DNA from: Nitrospirales bacterium | GTDB lineage: Bacteria; Nitrospirota; Nitrospiria; Nitrospirales; UBA8639 | Assembly: GCA_029261305.1 (NCBI GenBank) | Contig: JAJDBO010000201.1 | Span: forward strand, 1 to 12,616 | Direction: 5' to 3' | Length of the DNA stretch: 12,616 bases | Shown: piece by piece, positions 1 to 12,616 of the stretch | How positions within the stretch are numbered: the stretch's first letter is position 1 | Layout: every line of letters begins with the position of its first letter | Program-made: the position numbers and the translations under genes | Notes under the pieces: generated by a model | Databases searched by the model: none | What the model was told of the DNA's origin: nothing | Seen by the model: only the letters and a program-made list of their open reading frames with translations

Positions 1-1347
1 TTGACATGCCAACGGGACCCAAATGTTTCACCCACCCCTCTCGCTTCCCTCCAGGGAGTACGGGTTTGCTTTGTGGATGACAATTCCACCAATCGAATGA
101 TTCTTGAACATTACGCACAAGCCTGGGGAATGCAACACACCAGCGCATCGACAGGAATAGAAGCTATCTCTCGGCTACAGGAAGGTGTTGAAACACACAA
201 ACCCTATCAGCTGGCGATCCTGGATCAATACATGCCAGACACCGACGGATGGGCGCTGGCGAAAATGATCCGATCCGATCCTCGATTCGCCTCCATCTCT
301 CTGGTCCTCCTCACCTCACTCGCGCAACGGGGAGAAGCGCAAAGAGCCCAAGACGCAGGGTTTGTCGGCTATCTCACCAAACCCATTCATCAACGACACC
401 TACATCAATGCTTGGCCATGGTCATGGGAAGGGCCGAACTAACACCGGACTTTCCCCAGGGGTCCATTGTGACTCGCCACAGGGTCTCTGAAAACCTCTC
501 CCACATGGAAATCCAAATCCTAGTGGTAGAAGACAACTTGGTGAATCAAAAGGTCGCAGTTCGAATGCTTCAGAAATTGGGGTATCAGGTTGACGTGGCT
601 TCAAATGGGCGTGAAGCCCTCACGGTATATCGCACCAAGCCGTATGCGCTCATCCTTATGGATTGCCAGATGCCAGAAATGGATGGGTTGGAGGCAACGC
701 GGGAAATTAGAAAACGAGAGTCGAGGCTAGGAGAACACACGGAATTGGCAACGAGAGCCCAGCAACGGATTCCCATTATTGCCATGACTGCCAATACGAT
801 GATAGGCGACCGAGAAAAATGTCTAGAGGCTGGCATGGATGACTTCATCTCCAAGCCGGTGAAAATGGAAGAGCTCGCCCAACGCATCGATACGATTCTC
901 ACCCTAAACACAGAAGCCCCGGCAACCGTCAATGCCGTATCCGTAGAATATTCACCAACCCCCTCAAATGATGACAGTGACCACTCGCTCCCCGCACCCT
1001 TGAATCCTCAAACGATAGATGAATTGAAGAGCTTGGGCGGGGAAGATGATCCAGATTTTTTCCTTTCGCTCATTGACCAATTCCTCCAGGATGTTCCCAA
1101 ATATGTGGAGTCGATTCAGGATGCACTCAAGAACCAGAATGCAGATTCCCTGATGAAGGCTGCCCATTCATTAAAAGGAAGCGCCAAATATTTAGGCGCT
1201 GATTCTTTAGCCGAACATTGTTTTTCATTGGAAGAAAGTGGCCAACAGGGATCATTCGAACAGACACCACAACAATGGGATCTGCTTCAAGATGAAATTG
1301 ATCGTGTCACACAATGGCTGGCCCAGTCGAAATCCACGAAGAAATAA
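1..1347 (+). CDS. Hybrid sensor kinase, C-terminal part (REC-REC-Hpt), 5' truncated
   Basis: This is the end of a multi-step phosphorelay protein; the frame is open at base 1, so the true start lies outside and the TTG there is probably an internal codon. Residue numbers count from base 1. A first receiver domain (about 18-143) has the acidic pair VDDN, a phospho-acceptor Asp75 (LAILDQYMPD) and Lys127 (LTKP). A second receiver (about 171-300) has VVEDN, Asp221 (LILMDCQMPEMDG) and Lys285 (ISKP). A histidine phosphotransfer domain (about 335-442) has His389 in AAHSLKGS. Known BarA/TorS-type proteins carry a sensor, HisKA and HATPase region before such modules, so that part is presumably upstream. 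All phosphorylatable residues are intact, so the relay looks functional. No DNA-binding output domain is present; the Hpt probably hands phosphate to a separate regulator. It converges on the CBS gene with a 25-base gap and no clear terminator. Confidence 0.9.
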   Translation: MTCQRDPNVSPTPLASLQGVRVCFVDDNSTNRMILEHYAQAWGMQHTSASTGIEAISRLQEGVETHKPYQLAILDQYMPDTDGWALAKMIRSDPRFASISLVLLTSLAQRGEAQRAQDAGFVGYLTKPIHQRHLHQCLAMVMGRAELTPDFPQGSIVTRHRVSENLSHMEIQILVVEDNLVNQKVAVRMLQKLGYQVDVASNGREALTVYRTKPYALILMDCQMPEMDGLEATREIRKRESRLGEHTELATRAQQRIPIIAMTANTMIGDREKCLEAGMDDFISKPVKMEELAQRIDTILTLNTEAPATVNAVSVEYSPTPSNDDSDHSLPAPLNPQTIDELKSLGGEDDPDFFLSLIDQFLQDVPKYVESIQDALKNQNADSLMKAAHSLKGSAKYLGADSLAEHCFSLEESGQQGSFEQTPQQWDLLQDEIDRVTQWLAQSKSTKK

Positions 1348-3670: not shown

Positions 3671-3972
3671 ATTCCCCTAATAGATTTCCCTTCAGAGCCA
3701 TCCCCCTTATGTTCCCCCTCTTCTTCTCTTGATGCAAGGCAACTTTTATTCCAACTACAATTTTCTTCTCCATATGACCACCTGCCCAATGGATTTCCTA
3801 CTCGAATTTGCCCTGCACAGAACATTCCCACACTGCCTCACTGGGCCCAAATGCTACAGAGGTGTTTCCTAAAACTGTGGCAATTTCCCCAACTTTAAAG
3901 ACCCAAATTGACTTTTAGATTCAGGTTTTATGGATTTACCCCACCCTCTCCAAAATGTAGTGTATTCAAAAA

Positions 3973-3989
3973 TTGGCCCTGTTCTTGCT
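3973..3989 (+). promoter_or_regulatory. Sigma-54 type -24/-12 promoter for the amidohydrolase gene
   Basis: TGGC at 3974-3977 and TTGC at 3985-3988 are separated by exactly seven bases, matching the RpoN consensus TGGCACGN4TTGCW at all eight core bases. Transcription would start near 4000, giving a leader of about 45 bases before the ATG at 4045. It is 14 of 17 bases identical to the element at 10920-10936. An overlapping sigma-70 reading (TTGGCC, 15 bases, extended -10 TGATATAGA at 3991-3999) is possible but poorer. Confidence 0.55.
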
Positions 3990-4044
3990 GTGATATAGAA
4001 GAGAGGCCATTTCTTCGCCCATTTCAATACCACAGGTGTGACGC

Positions 4045-5232
4045 ATGCGTGATCCCATCGATTCCAATCCCCAACTGTTCCAAAAAATTGTCACGGTGAG
4101 GAGAGACCTTCATCGCTACCCCGAACTGAGCTGGGGCGAGAACCGAACCGCTCAAGCTATTTGCAATTTTCTCAAACACGAAGGGATAAGCTATCGGACC
4201 GACGTCGCTGAAACCGGCGTCGTGGCTGAACTCCCTGGACCCCCAAATGTCTCGTATGTCTTGCTTCGCGCCGATACCGATGCCCTCCCCATCGAAGAAG
4301 AGACAGGTTTGGAATTTTCCTCCACCCACAAAGGTGTGATGCATGCCTGTGGTCATGATGGACACACCGCCATGGTCCTCGGCGCAGCCAAGCTTCTGTC
4401 TCGAGAATCCAATCTTCCCGCACCGGTGCGATTCATCTTCCAGCCGGCAGAAGAAAAAGGCACTGGAGCCTTAGCCATGATCAAGGAGGGCGTCTTGGAT
4501 AAGGCAGGGATGATTTTTGGCGGACATTTAGATCGTCACTGTAAAGCGGGAGGGATCATTGTTTCGGAAGGTCCTGTGAATGCCTCCTCGGATATGTTTC
4601 GGATTGAGATCACCGGGCAAGGTGCCCATGGAGCCAGACCACACGAAAGCATCGATGCCGTGGTTGTAGGAAGCCTCATGATCATGGCTCTCCAAACCAT
4701 TGTGTCCCGGGAAGTGGATCCCGCATTTCCATCAGTCGTATCAGTGGGATCCTTCCAAGCAGGCACCGCATCCAATGTCATAGCAGGGCACGCCATATTA
4801 TCAGGTACTATCAGAGCCCAGCATCAGCACATACGAGAGCATTTGCAGACCGCCATCAAGCGCATTGCGGATTCGATCGGGCAATTGCACGGCGCGAAGG
4901 TCAACGTGACGATGACCCAAGGGACACCCCCGGTCGTCAATTCTCAAGAAATGACCCAACTCGTAAGAGAGGCCGCCATACAAACCGTAGGGCAGGACAA
5001 CGTCTTCCCCCTTCGAACTGCCAACATGGGAGGGGAAGACTTTAGTTACTATTTGGAAAAAATTCCTGGAGCCTATGTGCGATTTGGAGGTCAAGTGGCT
5101 GGACGAGAAAATTTCCCAGCACATTCCAGCAAATTTGATTTTGACGAACAGGCTCTGGCCATAGGAGCTCACTATTTTTATCATGTGGCACTTTTGGCTG
5201 GAGAAATTCTTCAACAACAGAAACAAGCTTGA
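4045..5232 (+). CDS. M20-family amidohydrolase (HipO/AbgB-like)
   Basis: A 395-residue metal-dependent hydrolase of the M20D group, which removes acyl groups from N-acyl amino acids (hippurate, N-acetyl amino acids, p-aminobenzoyl-glutamate and similar). Its length is typical. The N-terminal catalytic part has RRDLHRYPELSW (19-30), RADTDALP (75-82) and the metal motif ACGHDGH (Cys102, His104). Catalytic/metal glutamates Glu136-Glu137 lie in QPAEEKGTG. A metal histidine is expected in GGHLDRH (His161), a position often written G-L-H, and His360 is in FPAHSSKFDFDE. The dimerisation domain (about 183-295) contains GQGAHGARPH. There is no signal peptide, so it is cytoplasmic. The ATG at 4045 has AGGTG six bases upstream. 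A sigma-54-like promoter lies 57-71 bases upstream. The fused acetyltransferase starts 57 bases downstream on the same strand, so a two-gene operon is plausible. The exact substrate cannot be assigned. Confidence 0.9.
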   Translation: MRDPIDSNPQLFQKIVTVRRDLHRYPELSWGENRTAQAICNFLKHEGISYRTDVAETGVVAELPGPPNVSYVLLRADTDALPIEEETGLEFSSTHKGVMHACGHDGHTAMVLGAAKLLSRESNLPAPVRFIFQPAEEKGTGALAMIKEGVLDKAGMIFGGHLDRHCKAGGIIVSEGPVNASSDMFRIEITGQGAHGARPHESIDAVVVGSLMIMALQTIVSREVDPAFPSVVSVGSFQAGTASNVIAGHAILSGTIRAQHQHIREHLQTAIKRIADSIGQLHGAKVNVTMTQGTPPVVNSQEMTQLVREAAIQTVGQDNVFPLRTANMGGEDFSYYLEKIPGAYVRFGGQVAGRENFPAHSSKFDFDEQALAIGAHYFYHVALLAGEILQQQKQA

Positions 5233-5289
5233 TGGCAGAGGAACTGAAGCCACTCCATTTTCATGCTCACGTGATTATAGAGATGTTTA

Positions 5290-6951
5290 TTGACAATGAA
5301 ATTTGAAATTCGATTGGCAGAGGAAAAAGACGTTTCCGAAATTCGGGATATTTTCATTGCCGTCTATGGCAAAGATTATCCTTACAAAGAATTTTATGAC
5401 CAGCAGTGGATTAAACGTTCAATCTTCAATGATCAAGTCTTGATGCTGGTTGCAGAGGACCCCGACACGAAACATGTTGCTGGGACAGCCTCAGTCGTAT
5501 TCGAAATGGGTGCGCACTCCGATTTGGTCGGGGAATTTGGTCGATTGGCCGTTCATCCGGATTTTAGACAATATGGCATCGGCAATCTGCTGATGAACAA
5601 ACGGTTGGAAGCCATCGAGGATCGACTTCACCTTGGCATGGTGCAAACACGAATCATTCACCCTTACGCACAAAAAATCAGTTTAAATCATGGGTTTGCT
5701 CCTTTAGGATTCCTCCCCTTATCACACACCTTTTCCCATCGTGAAAGCTTTGCGTTGTTTGGCCGATATTTTTGCGACGCCCTGGCTCTCCGCAACAACA
5801 ATCCCAGGGTAATTCCCGAAGTCTATCCCCTGGCTAATCTGGCCTTAGGCCATATAGGCTTACCCTGCGATGTAATCGTTGATGAAGAATCCGCCCCCTA
5901 TCCCTACCAGAACGAATACCAGATACAAGAACTGACCGTTCAGGGTTACCCTAGACTGTTACGCATTGAACGAGGTCGCGTACGAAACCGAGAAATTTTT
6001 GGACATATGCGCTTGGAATATGGATTTTTTAAATTACACGCCAACCACGCCAATTATTTATTGGCATCAGAAAGCACGCAACTGGTCGGTGCCATTGGTT
6101 TTACGTTGGACAAGACAGACCATTCGGTCAGAGTATTTGAGCTCATTACCTTTACAGACCATGCCATCCGTTTTCTCCTCAGTGAATTAGAACGCAAATG
6201 TCGCGAAGAATGGGATATCCAATATATTGAAATTGATGTGAGCGCCCATTCCCCACGCATGCAGAGGACCCTTCTGGAGTTAGACTTCATGCCTGCAGCA
6301 TATGTCCCAGCTATGGTTTTTCATGAAGTGGAACGCTTGGACATTATTCGAATGGTCCGACTCACCAAACTTCAAGATCTTGGCCCACTTGCCTTGACAC
6401 CACCCATGCAAGAAATTGCCGATGTGGTCATGGGAGGGTTTTATACTCGGTCGGTAATACCGCGTGTTGCTCAAGTCGTGACCGACATTCCTTTATTCCA
6501 TGGGCTAACCCAGGAACAGGTCGAACGTTTGGCTGCCACCTGTACTATGGAGGGATTCCAAGCCGGGGAGCCGGTGTTTCGTGAATCGGACCCAGCGGAC
6601 CGCATGTTCATTCTTTTGGAAGGTCAGATCAACATTGGCGTGGGAAGTCCGCCGGTCCAGGTAGGTACCGTCAAAAAAGGAGAAACCCTAGGTGAATACT
6701 CCCTGCTTTCGTCCAAACCTCGGACAGCCACCGCCACGACTAGGACTGAAGTCGAGGCGGCAGTGCTCTCGTATCACGACCTCGGCGACTTGGTTCGCCG
6801 CCGACCGGATATCGGTGTCATTATTTACCGGAACTTGGGTATTGGGTTGGGAGAAAAACTTGTTCGTTCCGACCAATCTTTACGGGAACAGGCACTCACA
6901 GAAACTGAATTTCTCAAAGTGACGCACCCTCTTTCTTCACAAGAGCAATAA
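5290..6951 (+). CDS. GNAT acetyltransferase fused to a cyclic-nucleotide-binding domain
   Basis: A 553-residue cytoplasmic fusion. Residues about 4-150 are a GNAT acetyltransferase with the acetyl-CoA pyrophosphate loop HPDFRQYGIGNLLM (RQYGIG at 93-98) preceded by a beta-strand EFGRLAV. Residues about 225-345 look like a second GNAT-type fold without a clear acetyl-CoA loop, so possibly non-catalytic. Residues about 398-525 are a cNMP-binding domain (IPLFHGLTQEQ..., ILLEGQINI) whose phosphate-binding cassette GETLGEYSLLSSKPRTATA keeps the key Glu469 and Arg478, so cAMP or cGMP binding is credible. Mycobacterial Pat has the same partners in the opposite order (cNMP first, GNAT last). By analogy this may be a cyclic-nucleotide-controlled protein acetyltransferase; the target is unknown. 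Start: TTG 5290 (GAG seven bases upstream) or ATG 5296; the Shine-Dalgarno is weak for both. It follows the amidohydrolase by 57 bases. Confidence 0.87.
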   Translation: MTMKFEIRLAEEKDVSEIRDIFIAVYGKDYPYKEFYDQQWIKRSIFNDQVLMLVAEDPDTKHVAGTASVVFEMGAHSDLVGEFGRLAVHPDFRQYGIGNLLMNKRLEAIEDRLHLGMVQTRIIHPYAQKISLNHGFAPLGFLPLSHTFSHRESFALFGRYFCDALALRNNNPRVIPEVYPLANLALGHIGLPCDVIVDEESAPYPYQNEYQIQELTVQGYPRLLRIERGRVRNREIFGHMRLEYGFFKLHANHANYLLASESTQLVGAIGFTLDKTDHSVRVFELITFTDHAIRFLLSELERKCREEWDIQYIEIDVSAHSPRMQRTLLELDFMPAAYVPAMVFHEVERLDIIRMVRLTKLQDLGPLALTPPMQEIADVVMGGFYTRSVIPRVAQVVTDIPLFHGLTQEQVERLAATCTMEGFQAGEPVFRESDPADRMFILLEGQINIGVGSPPVQVGTVKKGETLGEYSLLSSKPRTATATTRTEVEAAVLSYHDLGDLVRRRPDIGVIIYRNLGIGLGEKLVRSDQSLREQALTETEFLKVTHPLSSQEQ

Positions 6952-6956
6952 TATTG

Positions 6957-6976
6957 AAAAAGCCACTAGGGGCTTT
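6957..6976 (-). terminator. Rho-independent terminator of the tandem usp gene
   Basis: Read on the minus strand, AAAGCC (6976-6971), a six-base loop and GGCTTT (6964-6959) form a six-pair stem, and the T-run extends to five T at 6961-6957. It begins three bases after the TAG of the minus-strand usp gene (6980-6982). It may also work weakly for the plus-strand acetyltransferase gene, where the stem is not followed by T. Confidence 0.6.
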
Positions 6977-6979
6977 CCG

Positions 6980-7894
6980 CTAAACTGCCCTGGGCCGAAC
7001 CACCATCACCGAGCAGGCTGAGTATGCCGCGACCCATTCCGACACGCTTCCCATTTGAAACCGTTCCGGGCCGGTTAAACCTTTGCTGCCCAAAACTGCC
7101 AGTTGTGCTTTTGATTTGCGAATAGATTCCAAAATAACCTCACGAGGATTGCCTTTAAGAACTTCAGGATTCACTTCATACCCTTCTTTAATAAACATGG
7201 TGCGGTATTGGTTCGTCAGTTCTTGCGCTCGCAGGTAAAACGGTTCGGTTAACGCCAACAGATGGGCTTTGGGAAGCACTTTTGGCGCAATATCTGTTAA
7301 GATTTGTGGAACAGCCGACAAGATCCGGATAGACACATCTTCTGGATCCAGCCAGTTTTTTGCGGCATTGGCTGCTCGTTTCGACGCTGTTGATCCGTCA
7401 ACAGCTAACACGGCCTTTAATGGTGTCAGCAACGGTTCCTTCACCATCAACACGGCACAAGGGGCATACGACAATACCTTTCGTGAGACACTACCCATTA
7501 AATACCCTTTGATGTCAGCCATTCCACGTGACCCAAGGATAATGAGATGTGGCTTCCGCTTTTCCGCCTCCCGAACGATCACTTCCGCAGCATGCCCCTT
7601 GGCCAAGACAGATCGAATCGTCACATACGGTTTCGTCGTGGATTGGTTGATGGCAACCTCGGCTTGGTCTTTGGCTCGTTTCAGCAAATCCTTCCCATGC
7701 TTCTCCAACGCAGACACATATTTTTTAACTTTGGTGACCCGGGCGCCCTCTTTCCTTAACCCGGCTTTTACTGGATTTGTGTCCATGACATGAAGAAGGA
7801 CAACTTCCTTAATTGACCGATGAAACAAGGAACCAAGGGTTTCAAGCCCCCAACCAGCATATTCAGACCCATCCACCGCACAGATGATTTTCAT
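6980..7894 (-). CDS. Tandem-domain universal stress protein (UspA family)
   Basis: A 304-residue protein made of two Usp domains, about 1-152 and 158-302. Both keep the ATP-binding signature G-x2-G-x9-G-S: Gly121-Ser-Arg-Gly124 to Gly134-Ser135, and Gly269-Ser-Lys-Gly272 to Gly282-Ser283. The adenine-contacting Asp is present in each (Asp8 in CAVDGS, Asp166 in LAVDGS). Usp proteins with this signature bind ATP and are induced on growth arrest, redox or energy stress; they act in the cytoplasm by protein interaction rather than known catalysis. Length is typical for tandem Usp. The ATG at 7892-7894 is preceded by AAGGGG about nine bases away. It lies 186 bases downstream of the BCCT gene on the same strand, with a sigma-54-like element in that gap, so it probably has its own promoter. 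Confidence 0.93.
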   Translation of the reverse strand: MKIICAVDGSEYAGWGLETLGSLFHRSIKEVVLLHVMDTNPVKAGLRKEGARVTKVKKYVSALEKHGKDLLKRAKDQAEVAINQSTTKPYVTIRSVLAKGHAAEVIVREAEKRKPHLIILGSRGMADIKGYLMGSVSRKVLSYAPCAVLMVKEPLLTPLKAVLAVDGSTASKRAANAAKNWLDPEDVSIRILSAVPQILTDIAPKVLPKAHLLALTEPFYLRAQELTNQYRTMFIKEGYEVNPEVLKGNPREVILESIRKSKAQLAVLGSKGLTGPERFQMGSVSEWVAAYSACSVMVVRPRAV

Positions 7895-7941
7895 GGTCAG
7901 CCGCCCCTTTCCTAAATAATCCTAAAAATAGTAAGTGTGGT

Positions 7942-7983
7942 TGTTGAAAAGGCTCTTGTACCCTTACCTGAGAAGGCCTTCCT
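7942..7983 (-). terminator. Possible weak terminator after the BCCT gene
   Basis: On the minus strand AAGGCCTT can pair with AAGAGCCTT (one bulged A) across a loop of about 15 bases, followed directly by TTC. The T-tract is short. Because it lies just downstream of the sigma-54-like element at 7997-8011, it could instead sit in the usp leader. Confidence 0.3.
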
Positions 7984-7995
7984 TCTGTTTAAACT

Positions 7996-8013
7996 AGCAA
8001 AATGCATGCCCAA
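7996..8013 (-). promoter_or_regulatory. Sigma-54-like promoter for the tandem usp gene (7 of 8 core bases)
   Basis: On the minus strand GGGC (8011-8008), seven bases, then TTGC (8000-7997) and T. The invariant GG and GC pairs keep the canonical spacing; only the T of TGGC is changed. Transcription would start near 7985, giving a leader of about 90 bases. It is weaker than the other three elements, and matches of this quality are expected several times by chance in the whole window, so its position upstream of a Usp gene is the main support. Confidence 0.35.
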
Positions 8014-8080
8014 TTTCTCCACCACAGAATGAGCCCGCCATTCAACTCGTTCATTTATATACCCGTGAAGACGTTTGCTC

Positions 8081-9622
8081 TCATTTCTTTCCTGCCTCTT
8101 CCTCTGCCTCTGCCATGGATTGGGATAGATATTTGGCAAGTCCAAAACAGGCAACAATCAGCAATAGACTCTGTGGCAATCCGGCTGAAATTGATGCCGA
8201 CTGCAAAGCTTTAAGACCTCCGGCCAAAAGTAACACTGAAGCAGCAGCACCTTCAGAAACACCCCAAAAAATTCGATTCGCCACAGGTGGATTTGGGTTG
8301 CCCCCTGAAGTGACCATATCATCAACAAATGATCCAGAATCCGAGGAGGTAATAAAAAAAATGACGATGAGAAATAGTCCAATCCACTGCATCACATCGC
8401 CCCAAGGAAGTCGTTCCAACAATACATACAGCGACATGGCGGCATTCTCAATCACCGGCTGCCCCAACTCTCCATGACTGCTTTGATCAAGATGCAAAGC
8501 CGTACCCCCAAACACGGCAAACCAAAAGCAATTGATGCATGTCGGGACTAACAAAACAAAGATGATGAATTCTCTCAGAGTACGACCTCGCGAAATGCGA
8601 GCGATAAAAATTCCGACAAAGGGGCTCCAGGAGATCCACCATCCCCAATAAAACAGCGTCCAGTTCGCCTGCCAATCCGAGTCAGCCCGGAAATCAATCC
8701 ACAGACTGGTTGGCACAATATGGAGGAGATAATCGCCCATTCCGAAGACAAACGTTTTGAGTTGATAAAGAGTCGGCCCAGCAAAAAACACAAACCCCAA
8801 CAACAGAAGCATGAAGCACACATTCAGGATGCTGAGGTATTTAATTCCACGCGAGACGCCACTGACTGTCGAAGCCGTGGCAATGATGGTAATCACCACG
8901 ATGATGGCAATTTGAATGTCCAGTGCATAGGCAACCCCGGCCACTTGAGTCAAGCCCGCGTTGATCTGCATGGCTCCTAACCCAAGTGAAGTTGCCACAC
9001 CAAGAAGCGTCCCCACGGTGCAAAAGGCATCCGTGACATGACCAATCCAGCCATAGATGTGATTTCCCAACAGCGGATAGAGGAGTGATCGAGGAGCAAG
9101 TGGCAATCCATTCCGGAAATGCAATAGGGCTACCCCCAATCCAAAAATGACATACACGGCCCATGGGTGAAATCCCCAGTGAAAAAAACTAAACCGCATC
9201 CCTTCGGCTATGGCCTGATCCGTTCGAGGAGAAGCCGTCGGAGGGAATTGATAGTGGAACAAGGGTTCGGCCACTCCCCAGAACACGAGCCCCATCCCCA
9301 TGCCTGCCGCAAACAGCATGGCCAACCAGGCAAAACGGCTGTATTCAGGCTCATCCTGTGGCTTTCCCAATCGGATACGGCCATATCGACTAAAAGCCAA
9401 CCATACCACAAACATGAGAATTCCAGCGGTGGTAAGAATGTAATACCATCCAAAATATGTCGTAATAAAATTCAGCACGACCTGAAACAGATCGCCTGCG
9501 GTCTTCGTCCATATTCCTGCAAAGAAAATGAGGGCCACATTAAAGGCAGCTGCGGAAAAGAACACCGGACGACTTACTCCGTCACGCCATTCAATCCATA
9601 ATGCTTTAAGCCTGACATTCAT
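8081..9622 (-). CDS. BCCT-family glycine betaine/choline/carnitine transporter
   Basis: A 513-residue inner-membrane secondary transporter with about 12 hydrophobic segments, the standard BCCT length. Signatures: the glycine-rich helix AGMGMGLVFWGVAEP (106-120), the family block WTLFYWGWWISWSPFVG (321-337) with its aromatic substrate cage and IARISRGRTLREF after it, and ITSSDSGSFVDDMVTSGG (424-441), which corresponds to the Na+-site region of BetP. Known members take up betaine, choline or carnitine, mostly with Na+ or H+; the substrate cannot be fixed here. The glycine-rich helix lacks the Asp of BetP (GMGID), as in BetT-like members. The cytosolic C-terminal tail is only about 20 residues, unlike the long osmosensing tail of BetP. 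ATG 9620-9622 has a weak GAGAG upstream. It starts 47 bases after the thioredoxin/DsbD-like gene, so the two may be co-transcribed. Osmolyte uptake fits a saline or alkaline habitat. Confidence 0.94.
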   Translation of the reverse strand: MNVRLKALWIEWRDGVSRPVFFSAAAFNVALIFFAGIWTKTAGDLFQVVLNFITTYFGWYYILTTAGILMFVVWLAFSRYGRIRLGKPQDEPEYSRFAWLAMLFAAGMGMGLVFWGVAEPLFHYQFPPTASPRTDQAIAEGMRFSFFHWGFHPWAVYVIFGLGVALLHFRNGLPLAPRSLLYPLLGNHIYGWIGHVTDAFCTVGTLLGVATSLGLGAMQINAGLTQVAGVAYALDIQIAIIVVITIIATASTVSGVSRGIKYLSILNVCFMLLLLGFVFFAGPTLYQLKTFVFGMGDYLLHIVPTSLWIDFRADSDWQANWTLFYWGWWISWSPFVGIFIARISRGRTLREFIIFVLLVPTCINCFWFAVFGGTALHLDQSSHGELGQPVIENAAMSLYVLLERLPWGDVMQWIGLFLIVIFFITSSDSGSFVDDMVTSGGNPNPPVANRIFWGVSEGAAASVLLLAGGLKALQSASISAGLPQSLLLIVACFGLAKYLSQSMAEAEEEAGKK

Positions 9623-9669
9623 GTTGTTCTCTCATGTGTGCTCGCTAAGTTTCCAATGCCATCTTCCTC

Positions 9670-10878
9670 TTAAAACAATGTTTCGGGTGCGCCGATCAAC
9701 AGTCCTGCAAGGCCTATCATCACCACGCCACTCATTAATTTTAACCATCGCCCTTCCTGCACCTGAAGTTTACGATGACTGAAGGTCACCACTGCAATAG
9801 AAACCATGGCCGCATCGTCAGCAATATACGCCAGGTTGTATAATCCCAAGTACCCGTAATACGTCCACCCATCCAAAGATTGTTGCGACAAGATTTGCGT
9901 ATACAAGGCAGGGAATCCCGCGGTACAGGCCAGCTCGAACAAATTCACCATCAGGGCTAATCCGACCATCCCTATCAACGCCACAGGAATAGTGTTGGCT
10001 TGAAGGATGGTCCGCATTTTTTCATAGAGACTCGGTTTGACAGATTTGGGAATACTCACGGTCACCCCTCGACCAAACGCAAAAAAGTCTTTGATATTGA
10101 ATAGACCAACGGCGCCGGCTAAACCACCTAACACCAATTGCGTGACTCTGGTATAGCCGATCAAGAAAAATAGATTGAGCCACGCCGCCATAAACCCGAA
10201 ATAGACGACTCCACTCATGATCACGAAGGTCCCGGCCAACCAAGCCATTTTCCTTCTATCCCGAAGCGTGGCTAACAACGATAACAAGAACAACAAGACC
10301 CACATGGCACAAGGGTTGAATCCATCAAGCAGGCCAAGCAACAGGGTAAAAAGGGGAAGTCCAATATCAGAGAAGGTCTGAGGGCCAAGGAGGGGAAAGT
10401 GGACGACACCAGGAGGTGGCTCTTTTTTGAGGGTAACACAGGGTTCGAGATCTTCTAAGCCACACACTCCATCATTTTCATTCTGAGACTGTTGCGGGGG
10501 AGACCTTCCTAATACCTCTTTTAATTGCCGACCAGTGGTCTCCTCCGCTGAAAAGCCTACAATCAGCTTCCCTTTGACATAAAACGCTGGCACGCCAATC
10601 GGCGTAACGCCAAATTTTGAAGCCAAATGTTTTAGGCGATCGCGAACCTCTGGGTCTTTCCCAACATCTTGGATAACGATTTTTAACTCAGGGTACTCCT
10701 GCTGCAATGCTGTCAAAAACTTTTTGGCTGCCTCACAATGTGGACACCCCTGCTTCACAAATACTTCGAGAGCCGCTTGATCTTTTTCAATAATCGAAGA
10801 AGGTGGCGAGGCCATGCCCAAAAACAGGAGCACACCTACAACAGATAGTACTTTGTTAGCAACAGCCCTGATGCTCAT
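9670..10878 (-). CDS. Thioredoxin-like domain fused to a CcdA/DsbD-type membrane electron carrier
   Basis: A 402-residue envelope redox protein. A signal peptide or anchor (about 8-25) precedes a periplasmic thioredoxin/glutaredoxin-like domain (about 35-124) with active site CPHC (45-48) and the cis-proline in GVPAFY (Pro97). A linker holds two more cysteines (Cys139, Cys147). The rest (about 168-398) has about six membrane segments with one cysteine each in FNPCAMW (Cys190) and ELACTAGFP (Cys318), matching the paired membrane cysteines of the DsbD/CcdA superfamily. By family knowledge it would pass electrons from cytoplasmic thioredoxin across the membrane to the CPHC domain, keeping periplasmic thiols or cytochrome c maturation partners reduced. 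In DsbD the thioredoxin domain is C-terminal; here it is N-terminal. ATG 10876-10878 has a weak GAGA. Both a sigma-54-like element and a perfect TATAAT lie just upstream. The BCCT gene follows after 47 bases. Confidence 0.88.
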   Translation of the reverse strand: MSIRAVANKVLSVVGVLLFLGMASPPSSIIEKDQAALEVFVKQGCPHCEAAKKFLTALQQEYPELKIVIQDVGKDPEVRDRLKHLASKFGVTPIGVPAFYVKGKLIVGFSAEETTGRQLKEVLGRSPPQQSQNENDGVCGLEDLEPCVTLKKEPPPGVVHFPLLGPQTFSDIGLPLFTLLLGLLDGFNPCAMWVLLFLLSLLATLRDRRKMAWLAGTFVIMSGVVYFGFMAAWLNLFFLIGYTRVTQLVLGGLAGAVGLFNIKDFFAFGRGVTVSIPKSVKPSLYEKMRTILQANTIPVALIGMVGLALMVNLFELACTAGFPALYTQILSQQSLDGWTYYGYLGLYNLAYIADDAAMVSIAVVTFSHRKLQVQEGRWLKLMSGVVMIGLAGLLIGAPETLF

Positions 10879-10897
10879 TCTGTCTCAGAGAATTAGT

Positions 10898-10924
10898 ATT
10901 ATAACCTCTTAAAATATTAAGCAA
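10898..10924 (-). promoter_or_regulatory. Sigma-70-like promoter alternative for the thioredoxin/DsbD-like gene
   Basis: On the minus strand a perfect TATAAT (10903-10898) follows TTGCTT (10924-10919) with a 15-base spacer, shorter than the optimal 17. Transcription would begin about 13 bases before the start codon, a very short leader. It overlaps the -12 part of the sigma-54-like element. Confidence 0.4.
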
Positions 10925-10936
10925 GAGAAAGGCCAA
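10920..10936 (-). promoter_or_regulatory. Sigma-54 type -24/-12 promoter for the thioredoxin/DsbD-like gene
   Basis: On the minus strand TGGC (10935-10932), seven bases, TTGC (10924-10921), then T: all eight core bases match. Transcription would start near 10909, giving a leader of about 31 bases. The element is 14 of 17 bases identical to the one at 3973-3989. A 10-bp-phased direct repeat TTCAGAG lies immediately upstream. Confidence 0.55.
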
Positions 10937-11070
10937 GTCTGATATTCAGAGACGTTCAGAGTACAAGCGAACTATTCTCCCCCTTGGTTGATCACACTCA
11001 AAATCCTGCTTCCTTTTTGGACAAGGGCACCTGGAGCCCTGTGGCCATTTTCCCCATTCCCACAACTCCT

Positions 11071-11095
11071 TGCACTCCTATTAAGTCTGCACTCC
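11071..11095 (+). repeat. Direct repeat TGCACTCC, possible activator site
   Basis: TGCACTCC occurs at 11071-11078 and 11088-11095, 17 bases start to start. This is about 75-95 bases upstream of the start predicted from the sigma-54-like element at 11141-11157, within the usual range for enhancer-binding proteins. Classical sites of this kind are inverted rather than direct, so the role is a guess. Confidence 0.3.
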
Positions 11096-11140
11096 CTTTC
11101 CCTAAGGACAATTATTAGATCTTTTTTAGGAATCAAGAAA

Positions 11141-11157
11141 GTGGCATCCAGATTGCT
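11141..11157 (+). promoter_or_regulatory. Sigma-54 type -24/-12 promoter for the single uspA gene
   Basis: TGGC (11142-11145), seven bases beginning with the consensus A, TTGC (11153-11156) and T: all eight core bases match. Transcription would start near 11168, giving a leader of about 33 bases that contains the AAAGGA ribosome binding site (11187-11192) eight bases before the ATG. Confidence 0.55.
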
Positions 11158-11200: not shown

Positions 11201-11734
11201 ATGGTTTCAACACGATTTAAAAAAATTTTGGTGCCAATTGATTTTTCTGCTTGTTCTGAAGAAGCGTTTCGTATGGCCAAGGAACTGGCTATGACCTTCG
11301 ATGCCAAACTCTTTGTCCTTCATGTGATTGATACCAACGCTCTCGAAGCGTTAAACAACATGGGTCTGGCTTCTCCCAGTGAGGAAAAAACTCAAAAGAA
11401 AAAATTACGGCACTTTGCCAGACTGAAAGCACGAACCCTTTTACAAACACCCGACTCAAAGAAGTTGGACATTGAGCGTGTTCTCAGTGAAGGTAAGCCC
11501 TTTGTGGAAGTTATTCGAACAGCCCGGGCGGAAAAGGTCGATCTTATCGTGATGGGTAGTTATGGCGGGCAAACCGCCGATGTGGGCAGAATCTTTTTTG
11601 GAAGCACGGCGGAACAAGTAGTGCGAACCGCCAACTGCCCTGTGTTGTGTGTACCGTTCCCTTATGCGAAACCCAAAAACGTCAACCCACCACAACCCAA
11701 AACTAAACGGCCAAGGAAGAAAGCGAGTTCATAA
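11201..11734 (+). CDS. Single-domain universal stress protein (UspA family)
   Basis: A 177-residue cytoplasmic Usp. The N-terminus KKILVPIDFSACSEEAF is typical, with Asp14 at the adenine position. The nucleotide loop reads Gly119-Ser-Tyr-Gly122, then 11 residues, then Gly134-Ser135; the usual spacing is nine, so the loop is two residues longer and ATP binding is likely but not certain. The closing strand CPVLCVP is normal. After about residue 152 comes a Pro/Lys/Arg-rich tail ending KTKRPRKKASS, not part of the fold, which could contact nucleic acid or membrane; its role is unknown. ATG 11201 has AAAGGA at eight bases. It is divergent from the thioredoxin/DsbD-like gene across a 322-base region with two sigma-54-like promoters, so the two may respond to the same signal. 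The other Usp in this window has two domains and is only distantly similar. Confidence 0.93.
   Translation: MVSTRFKKILVPIDFSACSEEAFRMAKELAMTFDAKLFVLHVIDTNALEALNNMGLASPSEEKTQKKKLRHFARLKARTLLQTPDSKKLDIERVLSEGKPFVEVIRTARAEKVDLIVMGSYGGQTADVGRIFFGSTAEQVVRTANCPVLCVPFPYAKPKNVNPPQPKTKRPRKKASS

Positions 11735-12616
<882 letters not shown>

Follow-up and report, generated by a model that had tools for sequence, protein, structure and literature searches.

Probable sigma-54-type promoters with predicted paired palindromic enhancers upstream of stress genes in a Nitrospirales bacterium

Three elements with an exact TGGC-N7-TTGC core in a 12,616-nucleotide stretch of Nitrospirales DNA, here called the window, are very probably promoters for sigma-54 (RpoN) that belong to a single stress regulon, in which an NtrC-type regulator would act on paired palindromes. 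We speak of one regulon, which is more specific than several RpoN promoters, because the enhancer pairs are shared. The basis of the whole analysis was computation, by which the promoter elements, the enhancers, their spacing and their recurrence in relatives were identified (Table 1).

Table 1. Predicted genes and regulatory elements in the window.
Feature	Position	Strand	Sequence or remarks
UAS 1 of amidohydrolase promoter	3842..3858	+	TGGGCCCAAATGCTACA; -132 from sigma-54 element
Enhancer 2 of amidohydrolase promoter	3876..3892	+	TGTGGCAATTTCCCCA(A); -98; arms best with 4-base centre
Amidohydrolase-GNAT sigma-54 (-24/-12) promoter	3974..3989	+	TGGCCCTGTTCTTGCT; exact core; PWM 9.7
M20 amidohydrolase, first gene of operon	4045..5232	+	PF01546/PF07687; TIGR01891 above cutoff
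GNAT acetyltransferase with cyclic-nucleotide-binding domain	5290..6951	+	PF00583, PF00027
uspT, tandem universal stress protein	6980..7894	-	PF00582, two stretches
7-of-8 sigma-54-like element before uspT	7996..8011	-	GGGCATGCATTTTGCT; PWM 10.6; weak
BCCT betaine/choline-type transporter	8081..9622	-	PF02028; TIGR00842 above cutoff
"Redox", membrane protein with N-terminal glutaredoxin domain	9670..10878	-	PF00462
Redox-BCCT(-uspT) sigma-54 promoter	10920..10935	-	TGGCCTTTCTCTTGCT; exact core; PWM 14.3
Distal enhancer common to redox/usp1	11007..11023	.	TGCTTCCTTTTTGGACA; 3.6 alone, weak
Main enhancer common to redox/usp1	11040..11056	.	TGTGGCCATTTTCCCCA; best window match, 17.5
usp1 sigma-54 promoter	11142..11157	+	TGGCATCCAGATTGCT; exact core; PWM 17.7
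usp1, universal stress protein	11201..11734	+	PF00582
atpD start, alternate F1F0 (N-ATPase-like) operon	12036..12614	+	best NCBIfam TIGR03305; fragment, below full-length cutoff

The exact elements lay where the preliminary description had put them, at 3974–3988 (+), 10921–10935 (−) and 11142–11156 (+), and the 12,616 bases held no others. As had also been claimed, they were close to start codons and aimed at them: each pointed toward its gene, with 71, 57 and 59 bases, respectively, from the first base of the element to the start codon. The 7-of-8 match before the tandem usp gene was present (7997–8011, −), and the first two elements had 14 of 17 bases in common, one flanking base on each side included. 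GG and GC dinucleotides ten bases apart, the −24/−12 criterion for sigma-54, were found in the three exact elements and in the 7-of-8 element. The argument from chance had been overstated. In dinucleotide shuffles of the complete window, 0.67 exact matches (sd 0.89) were expected, three or more were found in 11 of 200 shuffles, and with one mismatch allowed 16 matches were observed vs 13.4 expected. By itself, the number of exact elements is weak evidence and only suggestive; they are credible because of their position, their orientation and the comparison with relatives. Ten PWM hits in the window scored 8 or more, the amidohydrolase element ranking seventh at 9.7, and in the nearest genome (G217) a score of 9 was reached by 18 of 358 genes.

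An rpoN gene, whose absence had been proposed as grounds for rejection, was found in all 14 related genomes searched; a 15th rpoN locus was seen outside those 14. In the window's own genome, rpoN and the regulator are assumed to be present from the relatives. The comparison of intergenic with coding hit density, also proposed, was made in G217 (440 kb) and gave 0.209 matches per kb of oriented non-coding upstream sequence vs 0.033 per kb of coding sequence. Since the orthologous region of G217 had been chosen deliberately, a control was made without this region and its surroundings (40 kb), giving 0.132 per kb (5 hits) upstream vs 0.033 coding. In the same genome, the N7 spacing yielded 9 upstream matches in 43 kb vs 0–2 at each of nine other spacings, and without the orthologous region 5 in 38 kb vs 0–2. 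Genome-wide, the strict pattern occurred 38 times in G217 and 17 times in G204, vs 14 and 5 control matches, respectively.

Conservation of the four elements, a further check that had been called for, was found widely for usp1 and in the close family only for redox and amidohydrolase, and was weak for uspT. The usp1 element kept 8 of 8 core bases in each of the 10 relative genomes in which it was examined. The redox element was kept in both family genomes found with the gene (TGGCCTTGCTCTTGCT in G204 and TGGTCCTTCTTTTGCT in G213), and of two family genomes that have a start-side ortholog of the amidohydrolase, one carried the element. That the elements are chance matches, eight-base patterns before ordinary sigma-70 genes, is disfavoured and highly improbable. 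The shuffles that yielded three or more exact matches speak for it, as do the PWM scores of the amidohydrolase and uspT elements, which lie within background, but the conservation of the usp1 element, the specificity of the N7 spacing and the enhancer pairs described below oppose it, and in the gaps that precede usp1, redox and the amidohydrolase gene nothing sigma-70-like was reported.

The candidate enhancer is a 17-bp palindrome, TGTGGC-N5-GCCACA, often paired 34 bp apart, and such a pair lies upstream of every exact element. The palindrome was first written after the window had been seen, and window-blind de novo motif runs were made against that bias; the palindrome found had a log likelihood of 93.3, vs 26.6–33.9 for six shuffles with equal seeds. 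The first training set included promoters orthologous to usp1, and a later run was made without usp1-type promoters. The 11040 site was the best match in the window and scored 16.0 in the later run; a score of 15 was reached at 0 of 399,680 sampled G217 positions. The 3842 site was second best (13.6; 13.0 in the later run), and the 3876 site was third (12.0), or fourth (11.3) in the later run. The 11007 site, weak alone, matched a near-invariant footprint of seven relatives. A single TNCC-T5-GGRAC footprint in the usp1–uspT gap, first read as the enhancer, is now taken as the distal member of the pair. The best pair in the window was 3842/3876 (score 25.6, spacing 34), and the 11007/11040 pair, 33 bases apart, scored 21.1; the highest score in 400 kb of G217 was 18.4. 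In the later run, the pairs scored 24.3 and 19.9 vs 16.9. Neither was reached by any of 2000 resamples. At spacings other than 33–35, pairs in the window scored up to 17.5. In 25 loci outside the training set, several of them close kin, a spacing of 34 occurred more often than any other (11 of 21 site pairs).

These pairs bear on whether the elements might be real sigma-54 promoters that answer to different activators, with no single regulon, which we consider quite improbable. Matches to sigma-54 activators are many (26 in G217 and 16 in G204), and only 2 of the 35 strict G217 sites outside the stress island (38 in all) had a pair score of at least 18. Against this, both window pairs outscored everything in the 400 kb of G217, and no exact element lacked its pair.

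The activator is likely the NtrC-type regulator that is encoded in relatives divergently from usp2, another sigma-54-driven usp gene, acting with its PAS histidine kinase, as judged from gene arrangement. In relatives, the regulator has receiver, sigma-54 activation (AAA+) and Fis-type HTH domains, and the kinase adjoining it in G217 has PAS, HisKA and HATPase domains and gave no match to globins at E 0.001. The usp2 upstream region, on the side that faces the regulator, carried a sigma-54 element and an enhancer in 19 of the 21 loci having usp2, and in 14 of 16 loci outside training; usp2 was missing beside the regulator in 9 of 30 regulator loci. It is unlikely that the palindrome belongs to another protein, for example another Fis-type activator, and that the regulator adjoining usp2 has a different target. 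Gene arrangement is what links regulator and site, and at regulator loci without a nearby usp2 (L241, L260, L261 and L264) the best pair scored only 5.7–7.3, but the 19 loci with element and enhancer facing the regulator argue for the regulator itself.

For the best 25 of 120 NCBIfam families, the regulator always scored below the cutoff, those for AtoC, NtrC, ZraR and the PEP-CTERM regulator included; against PrsR (TIGR02915) it scored 411.3 bits, below the equivalog cutoff of 502.6. Because two of the strict sites in G217 stand before genes for PEP-CTERM-like proteins, control of the window genes by a PEP-CTERM/PrsR system was considered; it was rejected on this score and because the palindrome pair is lacking at those two sites.

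Judging from the loci, redox and the amidohydrolase gene appear to have entered the regulon only in this lineage. At the 79 redox loci that lie outside the family set, promoter plus enhancer was not found, and in 25 Nitrospira-type redox loci the promoter was missing and the enhancer pair too; redox orthologs with both were seen only adjoining usp1. The order of the amidohydrolase and GNAT genes was kept in relatives' loci, and promoter and enhancer pair preceded the operon in the window and in G204. The counterpart at one relative locus (L153) reads TGGTCTTAAATTTGCT and has an enhancer pair scoring 23.0. In G233, the amidohydrolase gene had no near element and no enhancer pair (pair score 3.7), and promoter and pair went undetected upstream of 29 amidohydrolase orthologs elsewhere.

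The preliminary description had proposed an RpoN regulon joining all four elements. The three exact elements, with their recurrence and enhancer pairs, bear this out; the 7-of-8 uspT element, which has no enhancer, does not. The best pair score for it was 4.2, and −5.5 in the gap itself, a value reached by 1782 of 2000 resamples. The redox and BCCT genes are separated by 47 bases and are probably in one operon. Because its element lacks an enhancer pair, either read-through out of the redox-BCCT unit or a remnant is the better explanation for uspT; the element may, weakly, be a remnant or a minor promoter. We find it doubtful that this regulon includes it as a functional sigma-54 promoter. In one clade (nine genomes) a 7-of-8 element lies at −87 to −93 of uspT, and where uspT is divergent from usp1 the enhancer pair is common to both, as checked in G217 plus five other loci, of which one lacks usp1. 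Enhancers are able to act from a distance, which also counts for a uspT promoter. However, in the window BCCT-redox stands between uspT and the enhancer, the gap of uspT itself is without a pair, the element reads GGGC instead of TGGC, and in the remaining uspT orthologs the element is poorer, distant or missing.

Downstream of usp1, the N-ATPase operon is perhaps read from the usp1 promoter. It is linked to the regulon because of G218 and G235, where a sigma-54 element and an enhancer pair lie directly before atpD; at L139 (G230) the 300 bases next to atpD held no site. A promoter of its own for the window atpD (11947, PWM 11.2) was rejected, being without TTGC.

In the mechanism we propose, the phosphorylated NtrC-type response regulator would bind pairs of 17-bp palindromes, typically 34 bp apart and mostly 65–220 bp upstream, and loop to RNA polymerase–sigma-54, opening the promoter. 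The redox/usp1 intergenic pair would drive both divergent transcripts, of which that of redox-BCCT probably continues into uspT and that of usp1 perhaps into the N-ATPase operon, both by read-through, and the second pair would drive the amidohydrolase-GNAT operon. The signal may be low oxygen, redox or energy stress.

A wider reading, which we offer tentatively as close to an even call, is that an undescribed NtrC-type two-component system, its regulator conserved across much of Nitrospirales, uses a new paired enhancer to run a sigma-54 stress/dormancy programme in nitrite oxidisers, covering Usp, Hsp20, Na+/H+ exchange, betaine uptake, membrane redox and a Na+-type ATPase. To our knowledge, the control of starvation and low-oxygen survival in nitrite oxidisers of this order is poorly known. 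If true, the system would be a sigma-54 counterpart of DosR- or sigma-S-type responses, with targets recruited per lineage by gaining an enhancer pair (amidohydrolase operon) or moving beside one (redox-BCCT). The amidohydrolase operon and redox, with both parts only in few relatives, offer a case of regulon growth. A promoter guess made from raw sequence holds up in relatives, and a predicted binding site, a candidate regulator and a target list make the regulon directly testable.

We found no description of this regulon in the literature searched; the type of system is already known, and the regulon itself is apparently undescribed there. The candidate regulator of the relatives has the same three domain types as the NtrC/AtoC/ZraR class of sigma-54 response regulators. 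DosR-type dormancy regulons put Usp genes together with other stress genes under a single two-component system; such joint control would be similar here, but DosR is not known to be a sigma-54 activator. The available text on NmpR mentions a dormancy regulon, induced by hypoxia, that has Usp genes (PMC11841059). Universal stress proteins (COG0589) are given as enriched sigma-54 targets in Planctomycetia in the available part of a cross-phylum sigma-54 regulon prediction, in whose main text "Nitrospir" is absent (PMC12316311).

A close likeness is also seen to NmpR (NmpRSTU), the regulon for oxygen utilisation in Myxococcus xanthus, which, in the available text of its description, has an NtrC-like response regulator, sigma-54 promoters and paired dyad sites with a 5-base centre (PMC11841059), all of which are predicted here. 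An orthology with NmpR was considered and rejected: each of four Myxococcota genomes gave 10–13 matches (E ≤ 1e-100, 42–50% identical), none of them a clear ortholog. The NmpR site, GCGCA-N5-TGCGC, with 14–15 bases between sites in 5 of 7 promoters (PMC11841059), differs from the de novo motif, which is TGTGGC-N5-GCCACA-like with 17 bases between sites at the commonest spacing. NmpR is described with a protoglobin-domain sensor (NmpU) and a phosphorelay (PMC11841059), whereas the kinase neighbouring the regulator in G217 has PAS domains. The NmpR targets cbb3 oxidase, HemN and hemerythrin differ from the set in the window, but a CBS-domain protein and a universal stress protein are also among its targets (PMC11841059), and Usp is common to both.

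Exact matches to TGGC-N7-TTGC occur three times in the window, all at the positions and in the orientations originally described, and the seven-of-eight match preceding the tandem usp gene (uspT) was also confirmed. The argument from chance made for them was weaker than claimed: in whole-window shuffles, 0.67 exact matches were expected and three or more appeared in 11 of 200 shuffles, so that the count is only suggestive. The elements are tabulated with scores from a sigma-54 weight matrix, built from 18 hand-picked strict sites of two relatives, G217 and G204, with none contributed by the window. By this matrix, the usp1 and redox elements are clear and the uspT and amidohydrolase elements are not; two window sites, which read TGGCC, are penalised because all 18 training sites carry an A after TGGC. 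Scores of at least 12 were found for 8 of 358 G217 genes, training sites among them, and the amidohydrolase site was the seventh of ten window matches scoring at least 8. Judged by sequence alone, the amidohydrolase element is the least certain promoter among the three exact matches, and it draws its support mainly from its enhancer pair and its G204 counterpart.

Sigma-54 elements, enhancer pairs and neighbouring features of the window
Feature	Position	Strand	Score	Details
Enhancer pair before amidohydrolase	3842/3876		25.6	spacing 34
Sigma-54 element, amidohydrolase	3974-3988	+	9.7	exact; first base to start codon, 71 bases
Sigma-54 element, uspT	7997-8011	-	10.6	seven of eight
Sigma-54 element, redox	10921-10935	-	14.3	exact; first base to start codon, 57 bases
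Enhancer pair between redox and usp1	11007/11040 (11007-11056)		21.1	spacing 33; distal site weak (3.6)
Sigma-54 element, usp1	11142-11156	+	17.7	exact; first base to start codon, 59 bases
Two receiver domains and an Hpt domain	1-1347			runs to first base; perhaps a hybrid kinase tail
GNAT acetyltransferase	5290-6951			fused to a cyclic-nucleotide-binding domain; beside M20 amidohydrolase
atpD	12036-12614			after usp1; start of alternate F1F0 ATPase operon; matches TIGR03305 (N-ATPase type)

The closest relative found was G217 (uspT 86% and usp1 75% identical), and wide searches with two window proteins gave Nitrospira or Nitrospirae records as the best matches among records giving names. The proposed RpoN regulon presupposes an rpoN gene; one was present in all 14 relatives searched, and a 15th rpoN locus lies outside these genomes. 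The predicted excess in non-coding sequence was borne out in a 440-kb G217 sample (20 spread 20-kb stretches and 40 kb around the orthologous region, with genes called mechanically), where TGGC-N7-TTGC occurred nine times in 43 kb of oriented upstream sequence (0.209/kb) versus 0.033/kb in coding sequence; other spacings (N3–N6 and N8–N12) gave 0–2 upstream matches each. Four of the nine fall in the purposely chosen 40 kb, and without it the signal is smaller yet confined to N7, with five matches in 37.9 kb (0.132/kb versus 0.033/kb coding) and 0–2 at other spacings. Genome-wide, the strict pattern TGGCA-N6-TTGCW outnumbered its reverse by 38 to 14 in G217 and by 17 to 5 in G204. Five of the 16 usp genes of these two genomes whose start lay inside the fetched locus (16 of 21) had an upstream site scoring at least 12.

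Conservation in relatives held for the usp1 element, was limited to the close family for redox and amidohydrolase, and was weak for uspT. All 10 relative genomes with a fetched usp1 at least 50% identical (13 loci) carry an exact eight-of-eight element 44–80 bases before the start; further usp1 copies are possible in other genomes. The redox gene was present only in G204 and G213 of 13 family genomes searched, with the element counterparts TGGCCTTGCTCTTGCT and TGGTCCTTCTTTTGCT, respectively. Among the 79 of 80 more distant redox loci that could be scanned, five had a sigma-54-like site scoring at least 10 and none had an enhancer pair of at least 14; 25 of these loci, with Nitrospira-type titles, had neither. 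The amidohydrolase element has a counterpart, TGGTCTTAAATTTGCT, at −80 in G204, where the amidohydrolase is also preceded by an enhancer pair (23.0). In G233, the only other of 48 family genomes with a good ortholog, no pair was found and the sole sigma-54 site lies far off, at −252, while the amidohydrolase upstream regions of other Nitrospirales (n = 29) contained no sigma-54 site of at least 12 and a best pair of 4.7. The GNAT/amidohydrolase neighbourhood itself is kept in many Nitrospirales, with neither element nor pair detected there. The amidohydrolase of G204 appears split into two pieces (loci L153 and L115) separated by about 270 kb; a run of N adjoins the second piece, and the split is probably an assembly fault. 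One clade of nine genomes has a seven-of-eight element before uspT, at −87 to −93; in the others it is poorer, distant or absent. In G218 and G235, which show no usp1 match between uspT and atpD, atpD itself has a sigma-54 element 174–178 bases ahead, with enhancer pairs of 18.7 and 16.7, respectively.

The enhancer, a 17-bp palindrome TGTGGC-N5-GCCACA, was first suggested by side-by-side reading of upstream regions. Since the window sequence was already known at that stage, de novo motif finding was restricted to 25 upstream regions from other genomes. Over widths 15–18, the best was 17 (TGTgGcAAaTTgCcACA), with a log likelihood of 93.3, versus 26.6–33.9 in six shuffles repeated with equal seeds, the shuffles of the first run having had fewer seeds than the real data. 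Its top three matches in the 12.6-kb window were at 11040 (17.5), 3842 (13.6) and 3876 (12.0). Of 399,680 sampled G217 positions, 13 reached 12 and none reached 15; a single match near 12 is therefore not rare. Six training promoters were usp1-type, related by descent to the usp1 region of the window. With these removed, the same motif was recovered from 19 regions (log likelihood 76.4), and the window was then led by 11040 (16.0) and 3842 (13.0), followed by a match within the CBS gene at 1622 (12.5) and by 3876 (11.3). Sigma-54 promoters do not generally carry this enhancer; a palindrome of at least 8 lay upstream of 3 of 20 sites scoring at least 12 in the spread G217 sample, versus 1 in the downstream control.

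In 25 regulator loci outside training, several of them close kin, a spacing of 34 was seen in 11 of the 21 pairs made up of sites scoring at least 9. At spacings 33–35, the next window pair reusing neither of the two tabulated pairs scored 9.0, and the maximum in a 400-kb G217 sample was 18.4, a peak itself upstream of a sigma-54 site. Without usp1-type training, the window pairs scored 24.3 and 19.9, versus 16.9 for the G217 sample; when all spacings of 18–59 were allowed, the best other window pair reached 17.5. None of 2000 resamples of either gap reached the observed pair score. The gap before uspT in the window had no pair. In relatives, pairs preceded usp1 in 10 of 11 loci tested (14.4–21.9), the usp1 of G205 having none within 260 bases, and a pair common to redox and usp1 was found in G204 (20.6) and G213 (21.9). 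The hsp20 genes of G217, G204 and G214 have sites at −132 and −98, positions identical to those of the window amidohydrolase promoter. Two similar small secreted-looking proteins of G217 (L177 and L179) lie behind sigma-54 sites with pairs of 18.4 and 20.4, and are likely further regulon members. PEP-CTERM-like proteins at L187 and L189 of G217 lie behind strict sigma-54 sites without a pair, presumably under another activator. PMC9850573 deals with RpoN-dependent PEP-CTERM genes.

Sigma-54 activator domains gave 26 matches in G217 and 16 in G204. In both genomes, one of these activators is encoded divergently from usp2, a tandem usp gene driven by sigma-54; in G204 the activator sequence is broken by N. 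The G217 protein, a response regulator, carries a sigma-54 activation domain and a Fis HTH domain, and adjoins a PAS histidine kinase. In its island, sigma-54 elements also precede hsp20 and a Na+/H+ exchanger gene, with a hydrogenase gene nearby. Of 235 genomes in the order, 216 have a regulator match at E ≤ 1e-120, paralogs included. The usp2 gene was divergent from the regulator in 21 of 30 loci fetched, and 19 of these 21 had both a sigma-54 element of at least 10 and an enhancer of at least 11.9 upstream of usp2 (14 of 16 outside motif training, which five of the 21 had fed).

Most likely, this regulator acts through the enhancer pairs, binding them and activating RNA polymerase–sigma-54. 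All of the support is computed; the assignment of regulator to sites, the signal and the read-through considered below are inferred. The pair between the divergent redox and usp1 promoters could serve both transcripts; its main site lies 121 bases from the element of redox and 102 from that of usp1. A search for terminators reported none on the minus strand from BCCT to uspT, nor on the plus strand from usp1 to atpD, and uspT and the N-ATPase may therefore share the upstream redox and usp1 promoters by read-through. In several relatives, uspT adjoins usp1 and the enhancer is common to both, whereas in the window BCCT and redox intervene.

Literature searches that combined Nitrospira with universal stress and either sigma-54 or rpoN yielded no paper; the binding motif was not itself a search term. 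The excerpted text of three sigma-54 regulon papers (PMC12316311, PMC4641369, PMC3162934) describes no comparable regulon in Nitrospirales. Among the described systems found, the closest is NmpR of Myxococcus xanthus, which, according to the excerpted text of PMC11841059, belongs to the same class and has CBS and Usp proteins among its targets, but has another binding site and another sensor.
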